A DNA stretch of 64,000 nucleotides from Jaapia argillacea MUCL 33604 (taxonomy: Eukaryota > Basidiomycota > Agaricomycetes > Jaapiales > Jaapiaceae): NCBI GenBank assembly GCA_000697665.1, contig KL197721.1, positions 727,472 through 791,471 on the forward strand. The letters are read 5' to 3'. Positions 19,388-31,800 of the stretch are shown piece after piece. Below the pieces are notes generated by a model. That model saw nothing but the letters and a program-made list of their open reading frames with translations. It had not been told where the DNA came from and did no database searches. Positions within the stretch are counted from its first letter, which is position 1. Every line of letters starts with the position of its first letter. A program made the position numbers and the translations under genes.

Positions 19388-19829
19388 TCCCTTTGGAATT
19401 TTTGGAGTTTTGATAAGGATGGTCTTGTGATGAGATCACTGCGTGGAATGGACATGTACGCAACACAGTAGGTAATTTGCTTTTTTTATATATTTGGAAT
19501 ATTTTCGGGGCCCTTGGTTGTTCACTTTAATGTGGCTGGAAATCGTCTCTCGACATTGATCTCAGAACTGTGGGTTTCCTCCCACCCATGCTCCTTACGC
19601 ATTGCACAAAGACGTATTCAGTATCGCGGACATCGAGCCGGATTTGAGTCATGTCTTGGTGGGATACCTACCAGTCCCAGGCAACCAATAATACCGACAG
19701 TTATGTGTTTTGGGAAAATAGGGTACAACTTCGAAGGAAGGCGGAAGTTTGAGGTGTCGCAAGGTACGCATGGCTGAAGCACGGGACCGTCTCCAGTCAA
19801 ATCGTACAGAATGAAACCACCGTGTTATG
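19388..19829. other. Intergenic between REEP-like gene and the KDZ element terminus
   Basis: About 440 bp holding the REEP-like 3' UTR; an AT-rich T-run with TATATA lies at about 19480-19500. No gene is supported. The left inverted repeat of the KDZ element starts at its right edge. Confidence 0.5.
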
Positions 19830-19853
19830 CACGGATTGAGTATACCGTGCATA
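19827..19853 (+). repeat. Left terminal inverted repeat of KDZ element
   Basis: Contains ATTGAGTATACCGTGCATA (19835-19853). It also forms a small hairpin on its own, with ATGCACGG at 19827-19834 complementary to CCGTGCAT at 19845-19852. Confidence 0.7.
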
Positions 19854-20325
19854 CCACGGATTTCTCGCTTAGGAATTCTTGGGAAGCACCGGACTTCTCC
19901 GCTTCGCCTGTTCGCCACCGTCCGCGCGCGCCTTATAACCTGCCCCGACCTTTCACTTCGATCCACCCTCATCGCCCACCATGGAATGCTGACCCTACGC
20001 TTGATGCCTTTCTGAGAGCTTTCGTTTTCTGCTCATTCTCCGGCCGTTTATTTTATTTTTGCCTCCGTCGTGCTCCGTCGAGTGGTTTCGTCTTCGTCGC
20101 TCCCTTGCTTGGATTCCATTTTGCCATCGAAATCATTCTTTTTTCCCATTGTGGTGGCACCATCTAGTCTGACTGAAGGTATGTGCATATCACGGGCGTA
20201 TGTTGACACGTACTGACGCTCTATCGTGTTAGCGCCCATCATCACCCTGCCCCTGATCAACCAAGAATGGCTCGTGGTAAGTCTTCAAGTACCTTTAATA
20301 TGTGATTCTTGCCCGATTTAATAAG

Positions 20326-21950
20326 ATGGCAGCTCCGTTGTGCCAGAAGGGGTGTGTTGACGCAAACGGTAATAAGGTCAGAGTAAAGGGCCATTCTTGT
20401 CCTTTCCGAGTCACGAAGAAAACAGTACGTGGTCTTCTCGTGTGACACTGTCATTCCCCTGACGATAGACTGTAGCGAGCCCTCAATATGTCTCAGCCAC
20501 CTGCCCCCGCACCTGGAATATTGCCTGGTGGGGCAGGTGCCATTAGTGTTGGGGCTGTGCTGCAGCCTAGCCTGGATGTGGATATGACTGACGACTTTGA
20601 TGGTCGCGGAATCTTTTCCGACCTTATGAGTCTCGGTGGGGGTACATATTCTCCCCCCAATCCTCCTGTAATCTCCAACAACCCACCTGCACCGTGGACC
20701 GATGATTCGGACTGGTTTCCTGCATCCACCAACAATAGTTCCGGCCCTTTACATCTCCCTTCCGATGATGGGTTGTCCTTCGCTACCGACAACTCAAATT
20801 CTTTCGATCCGTCTATTCAACTTCAATCATTCGTACGTGATCAAAACTCTCTCCTCCCGCAATTACTGATCCCAATCTTAGGTTGGGTCTGGCCCTCAGC
20901 CGAATGTCTTCGGTGGAGTTGGTGTAACCACAAGCTTCAATTTGTCTTCCTCATCCGATCAAGATCTTGAGGAAATCCTTGCTGGTTTGGAAGCTGGAGT
21001 TCTCCTCGAAGCTAACCCCACACATTCAGTTCTACCTGGTTTTCCGAGCCTTTCCGTTGTCGACTCATTTGCTTCTGCACCATCGAGTTCCTCTGATGAC
21101 AGTAGTACTTTACCTCCCTCACCCACTAGTTCTGGTAGTTTACCTGGACCTGCTGCTTTTATGGAGGTCATGTTGCAGTGTCTTCCCGGTGGGGCTGGTA
21201 ACATCACTCCACCTGCTCGTACCGATATCCACTGCGATTCACATGTTGCACAAGAGGGGTGTAACACACCTGGTGCCATCTCCGATGACCTTTTCATTGA
21301 GCAAGGGCTTATCAATCTGAAAGCGAAAGATGAGGATGGTATAGTACATTCATCTCGAGGAGATGAACTCTACCTAACGTGTAACCGGCAGGGGAACTTC
21401 TCTACATCGCTGACGATAACAAGAGAGGGAGGCGACATAGTGAACATACCCGTCGAATTATTGCCCATGTTTGTTTGCCACTTTTTCTCCTGAATATCCT
21501 GCCTGACGTTTGAGTTTCTCTGATAGCTACGCAAGTTAAATGATATGACGAGGCCATACATATTTATTTATATTGCAAGGTCAGTACTCGACTGGCTGGC
21601 TTCTTATCCACATGAACTGACACCATATCTATCACCTCAGACCAGAGTCTATACTTGCTCGCAACGGTCGAGCAGTCATTTACATCTCCCCGGGAATGTT
21701 GGAGGCCCTCCAATTGAAGTCCTGGAACCCTGACGAGATACACCAGATGGCGAAGGAACATGCACAACAACAGGTGTTGAATGCCCGCGAGATCTCGAAA
21801 CTGAATCGCCAGGTGAAAGAGGTACAGGCGGAGAAGGAGCAAACTGAACGAGAGCGCCAGGAGGGTGCGAGGTTGTTGGAAGCAGAGAGGCGGCGTTGTC
21901 GAGCCTTGGAGGAGCAGCTTGCTCAGTATCTAAACAATGGTCTGGCGTAA
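20326..21950 (+). CDS. KDZ-element partner protein: Cys/His-rich N-terminus, coiled-coil C-terminus
   Basis: Not a family I can name. Exons read 20326-20424, 20476-20832, 20882 to about 21480, then a last exon from about 21641 to 21950; the first two junctions are GT..AG and keep frame. The N-terminus MAAPLCQKGCVDANGNKVRV with KGHSCPFRVTKKT has Cys, Cys, His and Cys spaced like a small metal-binding or DNA-binding motif. The middle is acidic and Ser/Pro/Gly-rich (DVDMTDDFDGRGIFSDLMSL; SSSSDQDLEEILAGLEAG). The C-terminus after YISPGMLEALQLKSWNPDEI is a long Glu/Arg/Gln coiled coil (VKEVQAEKEQTERERQ). The stop is only 71 bp from the stop of the convergent transposase and both lie inside the inverted repeats, so it is probably an element-encoded accessory protein. 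The exon border near 21.5-21.6 kb is uncertain. Confidence 0.6.
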
Positions 21951-22021
21951 AGGATAAATAATAGTCACATAGTGGCCCACCGTAACACAAGCTAATTTGC
22001 ATATAGTAGATAGCCTCTCTA

Positions 22022-24871
22022 CTAGGTATTTGCCATACGATTAATGACATTGCGATTCCATACGTCCAAAAAAACCTTTGTGAACTGAATGGCATGGTTG
22101 TAAGCCATGAAGCTAACACTCTTCCGTATACGCTTCATACCCTTGTTTCCGCATTCTGCTGCACTCGTGTTGATAGCCCGCATTCGATCATCGAAGCGCA
22201 TAGCATTGCTAGCGAAACACGCCTGGCCACAGCGAGTGTGATCGTGAGCATGCATCTCGTCGATGAGAAACCGTGTATGTCGAAAGTACTCGGCTTCACG
22301 AACAAGACAGTATGGCGCAAGTTGGCAAGCAAAATCATAGACGATGACCTCAGGAGCCACCACAAACCGAGTGTATATGGCCGAAAACACATCATTCCGC
22401 CCCTCCGCAACAGGAATGCAATGGAATCCCAAGCAGATTGCGTGGGTACACCATAGGACAAGGATGCCACCCGTTAGATTGTTCTTGGAGTAGGTCTTGT
22501 AGAATTTGTTACAATCACCCATATGCTCTGCATCTCGATCGAGTGGTGCTCTGTCATAGCGGAGGAGAGAGTACCATCGACGTTCTCGTATTGCAGGAAG
22601 GCCGTAGTAGGTTCCCGACTCTTCCCACCTCTGAGATGAGATATTGTTGCGGATTTCTCCCGGCGGATGCTGCGCAAGTTGCAAGTATACGGTTTTGGCA
22701 CGGTGTGCTAGCCATCCTGCAACTTCCCTTAGCTGGGTTGGGAGAGGGGTTCTTGTGTCGTTGTGGCTTTGTATCACGGCTCCAAATGCTGGGCAAAGAT
22801 ACTGAAGCCAACTCGGTGTTGTCTTCGACTGAGCAACACATTCAAGTAACTCAATTGCATCGTGAGGAATAAGCTGTAGGACAATGTCCGGAGCAGCAAT
22901 CTGCCGTATCAAGTTTCGATATGTCTTGAAATGCGGTGAGGAATGGCCATTCGTGATAATGAGCTGAATCAGGTTCGCCACCGGCCGATATTTCTCGAAC
23001 AATTGAGAGGTATCCGGAAATTCCGATGGCATCTCAGTCGCTGTTAGCTCAAGGAGCTTCACAACCAGGGTACGCAGATCTCCTTGTATGATTGCAGGTA
23101 GACCGCGAGCCTTATAGGATGATATTGTTTCGACGCGCTCACTGGCATCGGTTACTCGTGTCGGGGGACACACCAGTGTACTCATTTTTGAGTGGTGGAT
23201 ACCGAGACTAATACCATCCGCAATCACAACTTTGGGTGAGGGACCACATGTCGGGCATGACATGCCACTGTCCAGGGTTTGTAGACGGGTAAATGCGAAC
23301 CACACTCGAACAAAGGTCTCGTCGGAGCAGAACGAATTCTTGAGGTTATGGTCCATGTATGTGCGACAAACTGTCAAACAAAATGCGGAGAATGGGGTCT
23401 CCGAGGCCGTGTACGAATTTGTGAAGCCATTCAAGAGCTCGTGCGAGAAGATCATGGTATTGTTCCAATTGAACAGTCCAAGACACCCAAGATCAGCACC
23501 GAGCTGACGACGTGCATGTCGGCACAATGGACATGGAACAAGCTCAATCTCCACATTGAATCTCGTTGTGAGGCCATATACCACAGCCAACTTCACAACC
23601 TTACAAGCAGGGTCAACCATGCTGCTCGTAACACCACAACAACACCGCGATGTTTCGTCAAACGGTATAAACTGTCCTCGGAGAAACGGCTGCGGTGCCG
23701 TGAGCGACGGCTCAAAGGGCAATGAGCACCACCGAGGAGGTGCAATGGGTAGGTGCGAGATACAAGCTCGCCCATTGAAACCATCATCATGCCCAGCAGC
23801 TTGCACGAGAAGAGTGTTCTCCCCGTCTGCTGCTTCATGATCAACTTCAGGTGCTATCAATGGAGGCCCATCTGATACCTGAGACACAAATCCTGCTGTG
23901 ATCGCAAACGCCACGGCGGAAGGCTTGTGTTTACATGCATCGGAGTAGCGGCATGATTGACAATGCCACCGACCATTCCTTTGCAAGGTGACAATTGATC
24001 GCTTGCCAGATTCGTAACGACCAGTGGAAGATATACACGAGAAAACATGAGTGTCATTGAATGGGGTAGTGTGAAGAAGGACGGCGGCAGGCGTAGGTGT
24101 AGGTGCGAGGATAGGTAAAAGGTTAATGGAGGGAGAATAAGTGTGCATAACATGACGGTGAATGCAGTCATTGCGAGACCGCCAGCGAGGGCATGTGCAT
24201 GCAATCCCATACTCGGTCTCACTGCGGGGGAGGCGAATCACGTGGTGGTAGGTGCCAATCTATATAACCTCATATGAATCAATGATATTCGAGGTATGAA
24301 TTGTGGGAGTACTCACCCTAAGCATCTCGTGCTCGTCGTCCCAGTCCTGAAAAACCCATAGATAAAGGTCGACTCGAAAGATTGTACCAAGGGAGCTCAA
24401 CGCACGCCAGTATGCGTCGGGACTTCCCATGGTGTTCTCGGCACTAGCGGTGGGGGCAGTGCTGATCGGAGGCGCGCCGTATTCGTCGAACTCGTATTCG
24501 TCGAAGAGCGCGGCGAGCGCAGCATGGCCATGTGCAAGTTCCGTAGACATTGCCATCGGCAATGGTGAATGCGGGGCGGTCGACACCGAAGTGGTTGGTG
24601 AAGGGGTCAGTAGAGCCCCCGAGAACGTGAGCGGAGACGTCGTTGTTGAGTGGCTATTGATGGTAGACTGAGAGGGATTTGGGAGAGTCGGTCGCGATTC
24701 GGATGACTGGCCCAGTCCCCGTGGTCGTTTCCTTCTGTCGTCATTCTGGGCCACACCAGTGTCAACGACAAGAGTGTTTGCAGCGCGGGCTACAGGCGGC
24801 GGAGCGTTCGATGTTTCGATTCTCAAAAAGCTTCCTTGGCGACCGGAGTGGCCTCGACCGTGTGTCGACAT
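22022..24871 (-). CDS. KDZ-superfamily transposase with SWIM-like zinc fingers
   Basis: A DNA transposase with an RNase H-like core. Exon 1 (about 24871-24318) encodes a Ser/Thr/Pro-rich N-terminus starting MSTHGRGHSGRQGS and ending DEHEMLR; after a GT..AG intron, exon 2 runs uninterrupted from about 24259 to 22022, giving about 740 codons without a stop. Two Cys/His modules lie near its start: CTCPRWRSRNDCIHRH and WHCQSCRYSDACKHK, both of SWIM type. Further Cys pairs follow (CPLCRHARR; SCPTCGPS). The core carries GFHCIPVAEGRNDVFSAIY, the YDFACQ motif (catalytic Asp plus Cys) and FLIDEMHAHDHTRCGQACF (His/Cys), then NTSAAECGNKGMKRIRKSVS, which match the KDZ pattern of D..CQ followed by D..H...H..C. 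An ATG 87 nt further upstream is an alternative start. The unbroken frame suggests recent activity. Confidence 0.88.
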
Positions 24872-24968
24872 TCGGGTGGTGGGGAAATGGGTGCTCCTGG
24901 GAATCCAAAATATGGAAGGTATAAATATGAAGCCGATGTGTGTATATGAAGTCATTGGAGAAACTTAC

Positions 24969-25047
24969 CCAAAAGTGGTAATGCAACCCTCTGCCCCAAC
25001 CATGAGGCTTGAATTCTCGACACGTTCTGAGATAAGTTCGAGCACAG
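24969..25047 (-). other. Exon-like 79-bp segment between ATP1 fragment and transposase
   Basis: The segment is preceded by a good acceptor (CAACCAG) and followed by a strong donor (GTAAGT) on the minus strand. In one frame it reads [20 protein letters not shown] without a stop. It does not match ATP synthase alpha at this point and I do not recognise it. It may be a chimeric upstream exon of the transposase transcript or a relic of another captured gene. Confidence 0.35.
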
Positions 25048-25085
25048 CTGGTTGAATGAGTAAGGTTGGCTGGAGAAATTACAAC

Positions 25086-25825
25086 AGTAGAAGACATCAC
25101 CAGGGTAAGCCTCACGACCGGGGGGACGACGGAGAAGGAGCGACATTTGACAGTAAGCAACGGCCTGCTTCGACAAATCGTCGTAAACGATGAGAGCTGC
25201 ATGTAAAGAGTGGTCAGCATCCTGGGAAAAGTAAGAAGAGTGAATACACACTGTGCTTGCCGTTATCACGGAACTATTCACCCATGGCACAGCCAGAGAA
25301 GGGGGCAAGGTACTGGAGGGGGGCAGCCTCAGAAGCGGTAGCGGCGACAATGATAGAATATTTCATGGCGTCATTCTCCTCGAGGGTCTTGACGAGCTGG
25401 GCGACAGTGGAACACTTCTGACCGACGGCAACGTAGACGCAGACGAGCTTCTTGTCCTCCTCGTTACCATCGTTCCACCTCTTCTGGTTGAGAATAGTGT
25501 CGATAGCGGCGGCAGTCTTTCCGGTTTGACGATCACCAATGATAAGCTCACGCTGGCCACGACCAATGGGAACCATGGCGTCAATGGGCTTGATACCAGT
25601 CATCATAGGCTGGTCCACGGAGCGAAGGGGGAGAATACCAGGTGCCTTCAGGGCGGCACGACGACGCTCAGAGGCATTGATAGGGCCCTTTCCGTCGATG
25701 GGGTTACCCAGGGCATCGACGACACGGCCGAGAAGTTCGGGGCCAACGGGAACGTCGACAATCTGACCGGTACGCTTGACGGTGTCTCCCTCCTTGATGG
25801 CACGATCGTTACCGAAGATAGAGAC
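25086..25825 (-). pseudogene. ATP1: Fragment of mitochondrial F1 ATP synthase subunit alpha gene
   Basis: Two exons, 25825-25252 and 25196-25086, with a retained intron (25251-25197) encode the central nucleotide-binding part of F1-alpha: [37 protein letters not shown], the Walker [40 protein letters not shown] and [20 protein letters not shown]. The intact protein is over 500 residues; only about 225 remain. The fragment begins at a splice acceptor and ends at PGDVFY. It has an in-frame TAG (25276-25274) just before FRDNGKH, where the family has an aromatic residue. An Arg-to-Cys change (CGT to TGT, 25152-25150) lies in the AVAYRQMS motif. The retained intron argues for DNA-level duplication, not a retrocopy. 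A short upstream segment (about 25980-25880) may hold a decayed earlier exon, but I cannot establish it. It lies inside the KDZ inverted repeats, on the transposase strand. Confidence 0.88.
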
Positions 25826-26473
25826 CTAGGGTAGTCAAACTGAGGGTTCAGCATTTGAGGTGAGGAGTGTGTCCGAGTCTTACCTGTGACGGAGCATCCA
25901 GCCAATCTCCATCAACACATCGTGCCCCAGTTCCCAGGCACGCAAACACGATACTCGTGCAACCCTGCCACGAATGCCCGAGACATGGTGAGTGGCGCTT
26001 GTGGCGCGTCAACGAATCATGAAATCCACTGTTTACTATTTGTTAGCAAAGCCACTGAAGCTGTCATGGGTACGGGAACACTCACTATGTTTCCATCCTG
26101 GTGACGCGACCTGATTACCAACCTCAAACCACCGCACCCACGAGAGCATCCACTCACGGTGGCACCCGACCTTACCAGCCTACAGAGGTTGTCAGCGATC
26201 TGACGGATCCACGAGTGTCAGGACATAAGCATTCACCATGCTGAACGACGGCAACAGGCTTGACCGTCCATGTGAACACAGCGTGGAACGGCGAAACGGG
26301 GAGATGGGATTGACATCGTCGAGGGTCGGTGGGGGAGATGATGGATGGCAGTGAGGGAGCCAGCAACAGCGAGGGTAGCGACAGAGGTGAGACGAAAGAC
26401 GAAACGAGGCGATGGGTGGCCAAACCGGGAAGTGGCGGAGAAAAGAAGTATATATGAATTTTTCATTCTGCGC

Positions 26474-26522
26474 TATGCACAGTATACTCAATACGCGTAT
26501 AGCACGGTACATTCAATCCGTG
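26474..26522 (-). repeat. Right terminal inverted repeat of KDZ element, two tandem units
   Basis: Read on the minus strand, two related units follow each other: 26522-26502 matches the left end at 19 of 21 bases, and 26492-26474 (ATTGAGTATACTGTGCATA) matches it at 18 of 19. The left end shows one unit only. Confidence 0.7.
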
Positions 26523-28256
26523 TAATTCCATCAGCGGTTATCCCTGAAGCACCGTTAGTGTTATCGTCTTCAAAGTTCACGCTAAGCAGTGTCCTCAGCC
26601 GTATTCGCCGACTAGTGATTCGGTACGACCCTTTCCTTTCTGTCTTGCACTGCAAGGGTGCACGGAGCTTGCAAAATTTGTGGCGGCTTCTGTGCACGAG
26701 GAGATGATTTATCTTTGGGTGTTCCTCGGGGTAGTCGCCGTAAAACTCTCTACTACGGTTACGCAACTCTCTCTGGAGTCTCAATAGTGACTCAACAGCT
26801 TGTGAGCTATCTCTCTCCGATGTGTATTGAGCAAGGCCAATAGTATCTCAGGAGTGATCAAACTTTTTCCTTTGGTCCTCCAAGAAGCTTGAGGATCTTT
26901 TGAGTTGCCTTGCGCAACCAATAACGCCGGCAATTGACTCGGTGGAAATGAGAACCTGAAAGACTTCGTCTGTTACAGGTACGTCTCGTACTCTATTCAA
27001 TCGACCGTATTCCTCGTTCAGGCTAATGGGTTCCTCAGCCGTCCTCGCCGAGTGATGGGCATACCGTCGCATAACACCCACCCTCGGTACACGCCGTATT
27101 GTAAGTTCCTTCGCAAGGATGGATTTGCAGATAGTGTCACGGGTTGTGAATCCGGTGTTGGTGCATGGTTCCATTCCGTTGAGCGAAGGTTGTTCAATCA
27201 ATTTTCACTTCGACCCCTCCACCTCCATCTCCGAACCCCGTCTCGGATTTCCGCTTGGTTAGTTGGCTAAACTTCGGTGCAATTATCGCGTGCTCTAGCG
27301 AGTGGTGACGATTTACCTCGAGGCTTCTCGAGTTTAGTAGCTCATCGTTTCGTACCTGGTTCCCACCTTCTTACATCTCCTTGACGATATGCTGCGCATA
27401 TATGTGAGTGGAGCCTTTAATTCCCTCGCACTGTTTGTTGACCATTTGATCATTCCGTCTCCTCGCCTGAGCAATGTGCAGCAATTATTCTACAATTGCA
27501 AATGCTTGGAGAAATCCCTGGCCCAGTCAGGTACAACCAATGTATCCTGGAATGGCTTCATTTCTTTGATGCCCTCCTAGTTTTCAGATGCCAATGCGTT
27601 CTGCGTCACCGGCGATTTGTTGGGCAGGAAAGTAATCAAGGGTGTGAGGTAAAAATAACAGACGCTCCATCGAAACTCTCCGTCACGATCCCCAATTGCA
27701 CATCATTCAAACTGCCTTGGTCGAAGCTGCCCTCGGAAATATCCGAAACCTCATGCTGTTATTTAACACCACGTTTCGAAATCGCGTCGGCCGGATAGAT
27801 ACCTATTTCTTTATGTAAGTACCTGTTTCTCGACATACGTATTCGTAACGAGCGCTCGGTAGGTGTTTTCGGGCTTCTCGTTGCGTTGTGGGGAGAAGCG
27901 TTCTTGTTGTAGAAAGGTGATTGAAATACGAGGAAAGGATCTGCGGCAATTCAGGTATGGCGGAACCAAAATGGTGGAATGAAGGCAGTTAATGTCGGCT
28001 CAGCCTAGCCTAATAAGTCCCTGCGGGGAGGATAACAATAAATAAACCTCCGGCAGCATTGTACCACGCGCGTAAGTCTCGGTGCGGATACACAGCTACA
28101 TGCATCAAAGAACTCTTATCTTCCTGGCGCTCATCTGTGCAAACTAGGAAGTCAGCCCTTCGGTGTCCTAGCTTCAAACTTCTTTCCGCCTCAGGACACC
28201 TTGCCTGCAACCGCCATCGTGTCCGCGTCGCTGCACGGTCATTTTCAAGCTCTGGA
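26523..28256. other. Intergenic, no gene supported
   Basis: A 1.7-kb stretch between the KDZ right end and the transcription-factor start. One minus-strand frame of 117 codons (26848-27201) is open but shows no domain; other frames are shorter. The right part presumably holds the promoter of the Zn2Cys6 gene. Confidence 0.5.
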
Positions 28257-31200
28257 ATGAGACAATCCAGTAGGGCCGTGAATAACCCTCGGTTGGATGT
28301 CAAGGACACGACGTTGAGGGCACAAGAGCAAGAGCTAAAGCGAGCGAGAGGAGCAATTTCGTGTGCGGAGTGCCGAAGGTGAGTAATCTATCGATTTATT
28401 TACCCTTCCGTTAATTCGTCTGACGGCTGTGGGATGGGGCAGGTTGAAGCTGAAATGCGACAAAACAATTCCCTGCGCGTCTTGCAAGAGGAGAGGATGC
28501 GCTTCAATTTGTCCAAACGGTCATTATGATGAGCGCTACACGAGTCGACATGCATCGATAACTGATGATCTAATTTGCAGGGAGCTTGACCACCGGGCAG
28601 GGAACTCGGTCGGTGGCGTTCCACCCGATTTCGGATGTATTCTTAACTTTTCTTGTCACAGGTTTGTGTTGGCGGACACTGAACGGCTCCACCGCAAGAT
28701 CGCAGAAATGAGTGACCGTATCCGGCAGCTGGAGGACGCCCTGGCTGTCCTACAACTAGGGGTTTCTCGTGATCAACATCCACTTTTGAGACGGGATCTT
28801 ATGAAGATCAAATCTGGTTTGGACCTCCATGTTGCCGGTCCTGATGGCGACGGACAAGACCAGGACGCCGATGACGATGCGTCGGAGCAGCTGGATTCAT
28901 TTGGTACCCTCGCCGTTCGTGAGGGCGGAGCCTCAACGTTTTATGGCCGTTCAGCGGGGAGTGAAGTAAGTCCAGTCAGCTTTCCAAGTTTGCCACTTGA
29001 TGTCCATAAAATTTCACGTAATAGAGCCTGCTGCTTGTACGTCCTCATCGTCACAGTCAAAGTCCCTCATTTTCATTGTAGGCTTAGGAAGAGCGAGATC
29101 AACCTCGAGATCCTCCCCGGAATCCCAATCTCTTACCTCCAGAAATTAGCGAGCTATCCGAACGATTTCCCAACCCTCCGGCACCCTTCAAGACTGACAT
29201 GCAAACCCTCATCGAGTCGTATCTCCCTTCCTGGCAGCGAGCCTGGCAACTTTCTGACCTCTATCTCGAACAAGAGTGCTGGCATTATGGCGCCGTAACC
29301 CGCAAACAACTCATGGACGAAATCTTGCCCGAATTTTATCCCGAATCTGTTGATCTCGCAAGCCCCTCTGACCCATCCACATCTCCTGCCTTTGTTCAAT
29401 CCACCGGCATAGGAGGCCCACACGATCTTGCACTGATGTTCGTTGTTTTTTGTTTCGGGGCTCTCACCGATCCCAGCCTCCCCCCGGCACCCGATAACGA
29501 AGAGGCCGATTTCTACTACCAACTATCAAGAGCTGCAATGAATCTGGAGCCTGTTTTGGAGAAGCCTCCGTCAGTGGCAACAGTACAGACCCTAAGTCTA
29601 ATGGGTATATACCGGGGTATGTGCGCTGGGGAGAACAGCATCGAATCGACATGGGCTATGTTCGGCTTAGCGACTAAACTGGCTCAGACCGTAAGTTTGA
29701 TTGATGCTTCTCGTTCCGATTCGGAGCGCTTACCTTTGAGTTCACCTCGATATAGATTGGTTTACGTGGGTGGTGTTCCACTCTATCGGTGATGATGATT
29801 TGCTGAAGATCATGTGAAAGACCACGACTGCGCGAGGTGGAAACTTTCCCCTTCGGAGACTCAGAAACGGCGGGCCTTGTTTTGGGAGATATTCATCACA
29901 GATTGCTGGCAGGTATGTGTTTGCATTCTGAACCCTCGAAAATTATTTTGCTCATGTGGGCGCAGAGTCTTGCTACCGGACGGCTTCCGACATTCTCGCT
30001 CCCATTCGTGGATTGCGAATTACCCGCTGATACGGATCAGACTATGCTCGAAGACGGCACTGTTGAGCCCAGCTGTGAGCTTCTGGTATCCTACTCGGAC
30101 GAGGATGTGTTCTTACTCCATCCTTAGTTCCTTACTGGAAAGCAAAGTTTGGCAAGGAGGTTGTCTCTGCGATTGTCCAAGGTACACTCACGTCTCAAGC
30201 GCCGAAGTACTCTATCATCATTGAACTCGACCGGAAAATTCGGGAGATGGATCTGCCACCTTATGCCCAGGGCGCCCCTCCACAAGGCCGTCGGCTGGGC
30301 GATACTATGAAGCACTTCATGCCTATCGTCTACAGAAATCTCAGTGCGTTGCTCGCGTTGACATCGAGAACCTTGGCCTCACCACTTGTCACCTTGTGAT
30401 ATTGCCATACAGCCCTTGTATATGTCCATCGATGTTTCTTCGCGCAAGCCATTACAGATCACCCTGCCGATCCTTTGCGAAGTCCATATGCCCCTTCTTT
30501 CTTGGCTGGGTATCGCAGCGCTTGTGAGCTTTTGGGTGTTTTGAGAAGCGCCTTTGAGATGTTTCCCGCTGAAACTGTCAGGGTACGAACCCCATCTCTG
30601 ACTTCGGGTACTAACACTGATCTTCTATACCTCGTTTAGTTCTGGGTCCTGTGGACACATGGGTTCTCATGCTCAGTAAGTCTCATCTTACTCTGGCGTC
30701 CCATACTTCTGCTCATGGGCTCGTATTCATAGATGTTGCTCGCGTCCGTCGCAACCCATGCGCCCAGATCGAAAGTCGCGAAGGCAGCTTTGATGGAACT
30801 CCGACTGGCTTGTGATCTCTATGAGAAAGCGGCGCTACATGGCGGTCGCGCCGTTAAATTCCTCGTAAGTGTGGAACCATCTCGACTCTCTGATCGAAAA
30901 TGTGTTCTGATTGAGAATGTATTTTCGTCCATTTAGCCCATTATCCGTCGCCTCCACCAGAAAGCCCACCAGGCGCTCCTAGACCTGCATCATGGGGTAG
31001 AACCCACTCGTCAGAAAGACCTTTTCTCCCCCACTCCTTCGGATGAGAAGAAAGACGAACTATCAATTTTCAGTGGACGTACTCACACAGTGGAGACGAA
31101 GACCAGCAATGTCTCGCATGCATCTCATTCTTCGTCGAGAGGTCGTCGTCCCCAAAGTCATCGTCAAGGCGACTCCCCTCGAGATTCATCCACTGCCCGA

Positions 31201-31800
31201 ACTCCTTCCGCCACACTATCTCCCACCGCCTCTAACAGCAACCCTTCCACTCCTCCATACGTTGCGGACTCACCACCGGAGTCTCATGCCCAGCCGTTCG
31301 CCGGAGTTCATCCATCTCTTGTCGATCAGTTACAAGGGTTTGACGGCGAGCTGAATGCTCAGATCCACGACGCCTATAAAGACACATCAATGCGTGCTTG
31401 GCTCGAGCAGACACAAGCGCTATCTCAACCTCCTCAGCATCACCAGCCCCATGTACAGGCCAGTGGATTACCGGCACCTTCTCCCATGATGCGCCAGGGT
31501 ACCTACGACCACCATCAACCACCTTCTTCATCGTACCAACATCCCCAGCCTTCTCAACAACATTATGGACTCGCCGCTCCTGCAGTCGATCGCCCAGAGC
31601 TCTGGACTGTCCCTCGTGGCGAGCTTGAAGCACAATATCCCACCCATCCATCTCAGCCCCACCATCCACCTCCTCATCAGCAACCAATCTACCACCAACC
31701 ACCTCTCCCTCTCAGTAGTAGTAGGGACGATCATGGACACCACAGTTTGCAAGACACCTGGGCATCATTCATGACGCAATGGCAAATGCCAGGGAGGTGA
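28257..31800 (+). CDS. Zn2Cys6 transcription factor with fungal-specific regulatory domain
   Basis: A fungal nuclear DNA-binding regulator. The zinc cluster is split by introns: exon 1 ends ARGAISCAECR, exon 2 starts after an intron at about 28380-28440 and gives RLKLKCDKTIPCASCKRRGC then CPN. A 28-nt exon (28581-28608) supplies SLTTGQGTR, and exon 4 from 28662 gives FVLADTERLHRKIAEM, a dimerisation coiled coil. The middle-homology domain (PF04082 type) spans about 29.1-30.4 kb: ESYLPSWQRAWQLSDLYLEQ, LSLMGIYRGMCAGENSIEST, LATGRLPTFSLPFVDCELPA and IIELDRKIREMDLPPYAQG. A later helical part has SVATHAPRSKVAKAALMELR. The last 230 residues are His/Pro/Gln/Ser-rich, ending WASFMTQWQMPGR. The start at 28257 is the ATG nearest the zinc cluster; an in-frame ATG lies upstream at 28059. 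Exon borders in the middle are approximate. Target genes are unknown. Confidence 0.9.

Follow-up and report, generated by a model that had tools for sequence, protein, structure and literature searches.

The window analysed here is a 64,000-nucleotide stretch of the Jaapia argillacea MUCL 33604 genome (C13:727472-791471; contig KL197721.1). It contains a full-length KDZ (CxC4-type) DNA transposon on the minus strand at 19783-26544, 6762 bp in length, which carries between its ends a fragment of ATP1, the F1-alpha gene of ATP synthase, at 25086-25825. Copies of the element were identified across the 43.7 Mb, 95-contig assembly at the DNA level, the transposase region and the two flanks serving as queries. 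Loci and copies elsewhere in the genome are named by their contig handles.

The outer ends of the window copy read GGGACC... at 19783 and ...TATCCC at 26544, and are bracketed by a perfect 8-bp target site duplication, TGAAGCAC, at 19775-19782 on the left and 26545-26552 on the right. Terminal inverted repeats are present but imperfect, composed of GGGA ends and a subterminal ATTGAGTATAC motif. Local alignment of the two ends places the left terminal region (plus strand; GGGACC..., subterminal ATTGAGTATACCGTGCATA) at 19783-19860 and the right terminal region (minus strand; GGGATAACC..., subterminal ATTGAGTATACTGTGCATA) at 26467-26544, the inner limits being approximate. Six copies of the family were found. 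Both ends are common to the window copy and the copies on C28, C20, C18, and C14, while the C25 copy shares the left end, the only one that can be read there. All five copies with both ends readable have 8-bp duplications (AAGCAAAT in C28, GTCGGCCA in C18, TATATGGA in C14, and GGGCTTGA in C20). The possibility, raised with the original prediction, that other copies end at about 24.9 kb was tested and did not hold; they end at the homologue of 26544. Between the window and C28 copies, the left ends are identical at 467 of 467 positions and the right ends are 99.1% identical over 213.

The ends also separate this element from two other groups. Two Laccaria families of Kyakuja elements have a 7-bp duplication, CA..TG ends, and no terminal inverted repeat (TIR), and Zisupton and Dileera make 8-bp duplications, as the present element does, according to the available text of the report (PMC12730594). 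Placement in the Kyakuja subgroup was rejected on the 8-bp duplication and the GGGA..TCCC ends. A Helitron, which would have no target duplication and a Rep/helicase, was rejected on the 8-bp duplications and the CxC4 transposase.

The transposase gene (22022-24871, minus strand) encodes approximately 930 amino acids in two exons, 24317-24871 and 22022-24259, separated by an intron at 24260-24316. It has no internal stop and includes an open frame of 745 amino acids. By eye, its start and splice join match those of the annotated relatives P0003-P0006. The CxC4 domain (PF18717) is matched at 138.6 bits (1.4e-40), well over the cutoff. The KDZ domain (PF18758) is matched at residues 590-729 with 21.6 bits (E 2e-4), below the cutoff of 26.6, and a genome-wide search with this domain gives 25.4 bits at the transposase, also below cutoff. 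Both domains are present in 11 of the 60 listed relatives by precomputed Pfam assignments.

The ATP1 fragment is 740 bp in length and aligns end to end with C4:896092-896831, with 700 of 741 columns identical (94.5%). It is composed of two exon parts (25252-25825 and 25086-25196) and one 55-bp intron (25197-25251) located at the parental position. Both reading-frame pieces match Pfam ATP-synt_ab (8.9e-28 and 1.5e-9). The fragment covers approximately residues 109-338 of the 546-residue ATP1 query, with both gene ends missing, and has a single in-frame stop at 25274-25276 produced by a TGG to TAG change. Its coding strand is that of the transposase, and it is placed in the leader, between the right end of the element and the transposase start. 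The original prediction of an intron-containing ATP1 segment with a stop codon on the transposase strand was thus exact in its coordinates. Its placement within the bounded element also stands, while a position at the 5' edge does not, as 719 bp of element sequence (25826-26544) lie between the fragment and the right end.

An intact ATP1 gene is located on C4. Its spliced protein aligns over the full length with other fungal ATP1 proteins (for example P0064, 92% identity). A search of the genome with the ATP1 protein produced 11 rows in all, of which seven are on C4, two fall on the fragment, and two are distant matches on C5. The C4 copy is the only intact ATP1 found by this search in the readable assembly, in agreement with the prediction that the fragment is captured host DNA.

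The leader can be read in two of the six known family copies, those of the window and C14. In the C28, C20, C18, and C25 copies the interior is given as N, and C14 also has a long run of N outside its leader. The window and C14 copies align over window positions 24767-25079, 25820-25932, and 26008-26545, and element sequence is therefore common to both sides of the fragment. Between the first two blocks the sequences differ, with 740 bp in the window copy and 512 bp in C14. The C14 leader holds no ATP1 sequence at this place. It holds a piece of a different gene, from C1:1941245-1941661, that has a protein kinase domain (5.8e-26) and that we take, from its layout, to be RIM15-like. The piece matches C1:1941245-1941623 (336 of 379 bases identical) and C1:1941623-1941661 (37 of 39) in swapped order, a circular permutation. 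Approximately 80 bp of the C14 leader beside it, searched as 88 bases including a few flanking, had no second match in the genome. The kinase piece includes an intron of the C1 gene and has the orientation of the transposase, so that both fragments retain an intron and are sense to the transposase. This sister-copy kinase capture is new and occupies the same part of the element as the ATP1 piece, which supports capture. The proposed check of whether other copies carry the same fragment at the same position gives a negative answer for C14, and the other four copies read N inside. One readable copy of each captured fragment is thus known.

The C14 copy is CpG-depleted, with an observed/expected ratio of 0.36 (0.91 for the window copy), which fits an older copy that has decayed through methylation. 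The kinase piece shares this trend: of its CpG transitions, 16 have the direction C1 to C14 and one the reverse. Its capture therefore predates at least part of the decay of C14.

A putative element leader intron (GTAAG...CTAG; 25826-25883, minus strand), with splice sites kept in C14, ends in CTAG when read in the sense direction from 25883 to 25826, and the fragment starts at the base following the acceptor. At this point C14 reads GTCTCTGTGG, the window copy reads GTCTC and then ATP1, and parental ATP1 reads GTTGGTGTCTCC. GTCTC is common to element and donor, which gives a 5-bp microhomology at this junction. At the other junction, comparison of the window copy, C4, and C14 shows six bases (25080-25085, minus strand) that match neither donor nor element. 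The kinase pieces of C14 have approximately 80 bp to one side and 16 bp to the other that are absent from the window copy. The two captures therefore occurred in the same short region, not necessarily at the same base.

Taken together, this is very probably a KDZ transposon whose transposase frame is open and whose leader holds internal exons of ATP1 with their intron, copied from DNA. A break inside the element would have been repaired with template switching, during which the ATP1 piece was copied in; the GTCTC shared at one junction and the six unassigned bases at the other point to this route. The kinase piece may have entered the sister copy likewise, with the leader tolerating or attracting such filler. 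Two points weigh against this interpretation. The leader is readable in so few copies that the ATP1 piece can be called only putatively co-mobile. In addition, the circular permutation and the unmatched bases in C14 mean that the repair route is no simple copy.

The fragment encodes no usable piece of ATP1 because of the stop and the lost ends. In-frame reading with the transposase was rejected, as the frames differ by eye. A captured promoter, as proposed originally, is unlikely because the fragment consists of internal coding exons with the 719 bp of element sequence upstream. Use as spliced exons of an untranslated leader is structurally possible, and a second putative leader intron (GTAAGT...CCCAG) with the same splice sites in C14 is located just upstream of the transposase start, at 24897-24968 on the minus strand. 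To judge from the sequence, tolerated passenger DNA is the likeliest role of the fragment.

A variant that overlaps with this interpretation is that ATP1 DNA filled a break in an element already in place and that the fragment was never mobilised. Such a patch would agree with two observations, that the ATP1 piece is readable in a single copy and that C14 carries a different piece. Against it, the replacement differences of the fragment (7 in approximately 519 sites) exceed the differences between the window and C28 ends, and the fragment therefore looks older than the last jump, although the numbers are small. The N interior of C28 is also about as long as that of the window copy including the fragment (6130 and 6089, a difference of +41), a length that may be a gap estimate. 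We regard an in-place patch as rather doubtful. The N interiors of C20 and C18 differ from the window copy by -442 and -732, which may likewise be gap estimates. The C18 shortfall, if not such an estimate, is close to the window copy minus the 740-bp ATP1 piece. An early reading of these copies as having identical ends and different interiors was dropped, as their interiors read N.

A second alternative concerns the donor and is compatible with capture by break repair. The fragment would derive from the present genome's own ATP1 lineage and would have decayed neutrally since. The only intact ATP1 found is 94.5% identical to the fragment, which favors this origin. The pattern of differences does not. 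Across the exons there are 30 differences from C4, 23 silent in 165.3 sites and 7 replacement in 518.7 sites, for a ratio of 0.097. In the intron, 9 of 54 positions are different. Across the whole fragment, C-to-T (11) and T-to-C (10) changes are balanced. When the replaced sites were compared with the best 120 of 7999 homologue matches, the parental residue was present at six of the seven sites in 110 to 120 of the 120. At the seventh (N to D) it was present in 67, with D in none of those listed. At one replaced site (T for A), the residue of the fragment occurs in one listed homologue. As the parental residues are conserved, the replacements most likely arose on the fragment side. In simulations of same-lineage neutral decay, which assume that the two branches share one neutral rate and that the fragment is free of selection, seven or fewer replacements occurred in 0.07% of 3000 runs. 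A post-capture share of the fragment branch of 0.2 or less fits the ATP1 replacements, and a share of 0.5 is only marginally disfavored (0.057), which leaves some room for the own lineage. Once its CpG transitions are set aside, the kinase piece has 9 silent, 5 replacement, and 13 of 62 intron differences; the replacement count alone does not reject the same-lineage model (0.087) and the intron count does (0.007). On balance, capture from the own lineage followed by neutral decay is unlikely.

Differences are much more frequent at silent and intron sites than at replacement sites, which suggests that the donors had already diverged at the time of capture. Purifying selection on the fragment inside the element would also explain a low replacement count, and is unlikely for a piece that has a stop, lacks both ends, and is out of frame. 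The same picture would arise in a very diverse host species. Tentatively, and with somewhat less than even confidence, the donor ATP1 and kinase genes were about a tenth diverged at silent sites from the copies in the present genome and were captured in another fungal lineage, followed by horizontal transfer or introgression.

Two further explanations hardly survive. Capture from a transcript (cDNA), the route reported for histone H3 in hAT elements of fungi, would agree with the sense orientation of both pieces and is very improbable, as an intron is retained in each. That the fragment is what remains of a broken host ATP1 gene into which the element inserted, for which its truncation alone speaks, is refuted by the intact ATP1 on C4, the element sequence common to C14 on both sides of the fragment, and the target duplications that bracket element and fragment together.

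KDZ sequences are common in this genome, with 71 domain match rows, some of which are two pieces of one gene. The survey covers the family described here, and other KDZ families lie outside it; at one C12 KDZ locus among these rows, no clear terminal repeats were found within 8 kb. More distant DNA matches to the family are located on C40 (67% identical) and, as one piece, on C1. For C40, neither the left end nor, within 10 kb, a second copy of its flank was found. The C40 leader is uninformative on capture because its likeness to the window and C14 copies is limited to the terminal 33 bp. A third candidate capture, the NCBI model JAAARDRAFT_199121 (P0055; a protein kinase joined to a CxC4 transposase; C40:202462-207565), was rejected as a gene-model fusion. 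It looks like a gene-model error because the right-end motif (206580-206590) separates most of the kinase exons, which lie beyond it at 206854-207565, from the transposase; a stop-containing row at 206327-206626 straddles the motif.

The element contains a second gene or gene remnant at 20476-21950 on the plus strand, with open frames at 20476-20970, 20882-21493, and 21621-21950. The frames are convergent with the transposase and their DNA is common to C14; Pfam gave no match for any of the three at E 0.01. In C14, the left third of the element (C14:623251-625385, homologue of 19783-21868) is inverted together with approximately 57 bp of flank including the target duplication, and may be either a real inversion or an assembly error. 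A short way to the right of the element in the window is a putative gene (28300-31800, plus strand) with a Zn2Cys6-like start by eye.

Pack-MULEs of plants are DNA transposons that hold gene fragments between their terminal repeats and are usually non-autonomous. They belong to a different superfamily, and the window copy differs in having an open transposase frame. Two marks of a transduplicating (Pack-type) element are present, host gene sequence between the ends of the window copy and an intact gene of the donor type elsewhere; for a third, multiplication of the captured sequence by transposition, one copy of each fragment is readable.

Among the literature matches listed for KDZ, Zisupton, and Kyakuja with capture or transduplication, no report of gene-fragment capture by KDZ elements appears. 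As far as the available text of the reports goes, fungal transduplication is described for hAT and Tc1/mariner elements in Pyrenophora tritici-repentis and for hAT elements in Pseudocercospora fijiensis (PMC3538342, PMC6710886). Like the window copy, these are fungal TIR DNA transposons with host-derived coding sequence between their ends, and the P. fijiensis hAT case also has 8-bp duplications. They belong to other superfamilies, and the hAT elements are described as carrying captured histone H3 transcripts amplified to many copies, whereas the KDZ case has retained introns, two different genes, and one readable copy of each fragment. The available text of another report describes a TET/JBP gene captured by KDZ elements (PMC12730594). 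This is likewise a KDZ element with a captured non-transposase gene, but an enzyme gene present in many transposon lineages, whereas the pieces in the window and C14 copies are partial and come from unrelated host genes. Helitrons of Pleurotus ostreatus carry captured genes thought by the authors to come from other hosts (PMC4289320, available text). They resemble the window copy as basidiomycete transposons with captured genes and differ in having no target duplications. In fish, a Zisupton isoform includes an F-box domain, and which side captured which is left open in the accessible part of the report (PMC12062965).

A KDZ-type transposon thus appears to be capable of acquiring pieces of genes, perhaps those of a different fungal lineage. 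Copying of host gene fragments by KDZ elements at the DNA level, should it occur, would provide a further route of exon shuffling beside hAT, Tc1/mariner, and Helitrons. Provided that the evidence from silent sites stands, such fragments would tag a former host, and horizontal transfer of a transposon would become testable without a transposon phylogeny. Should the donor prove foreign, exons captured by transposons could serve to identify the previous host.
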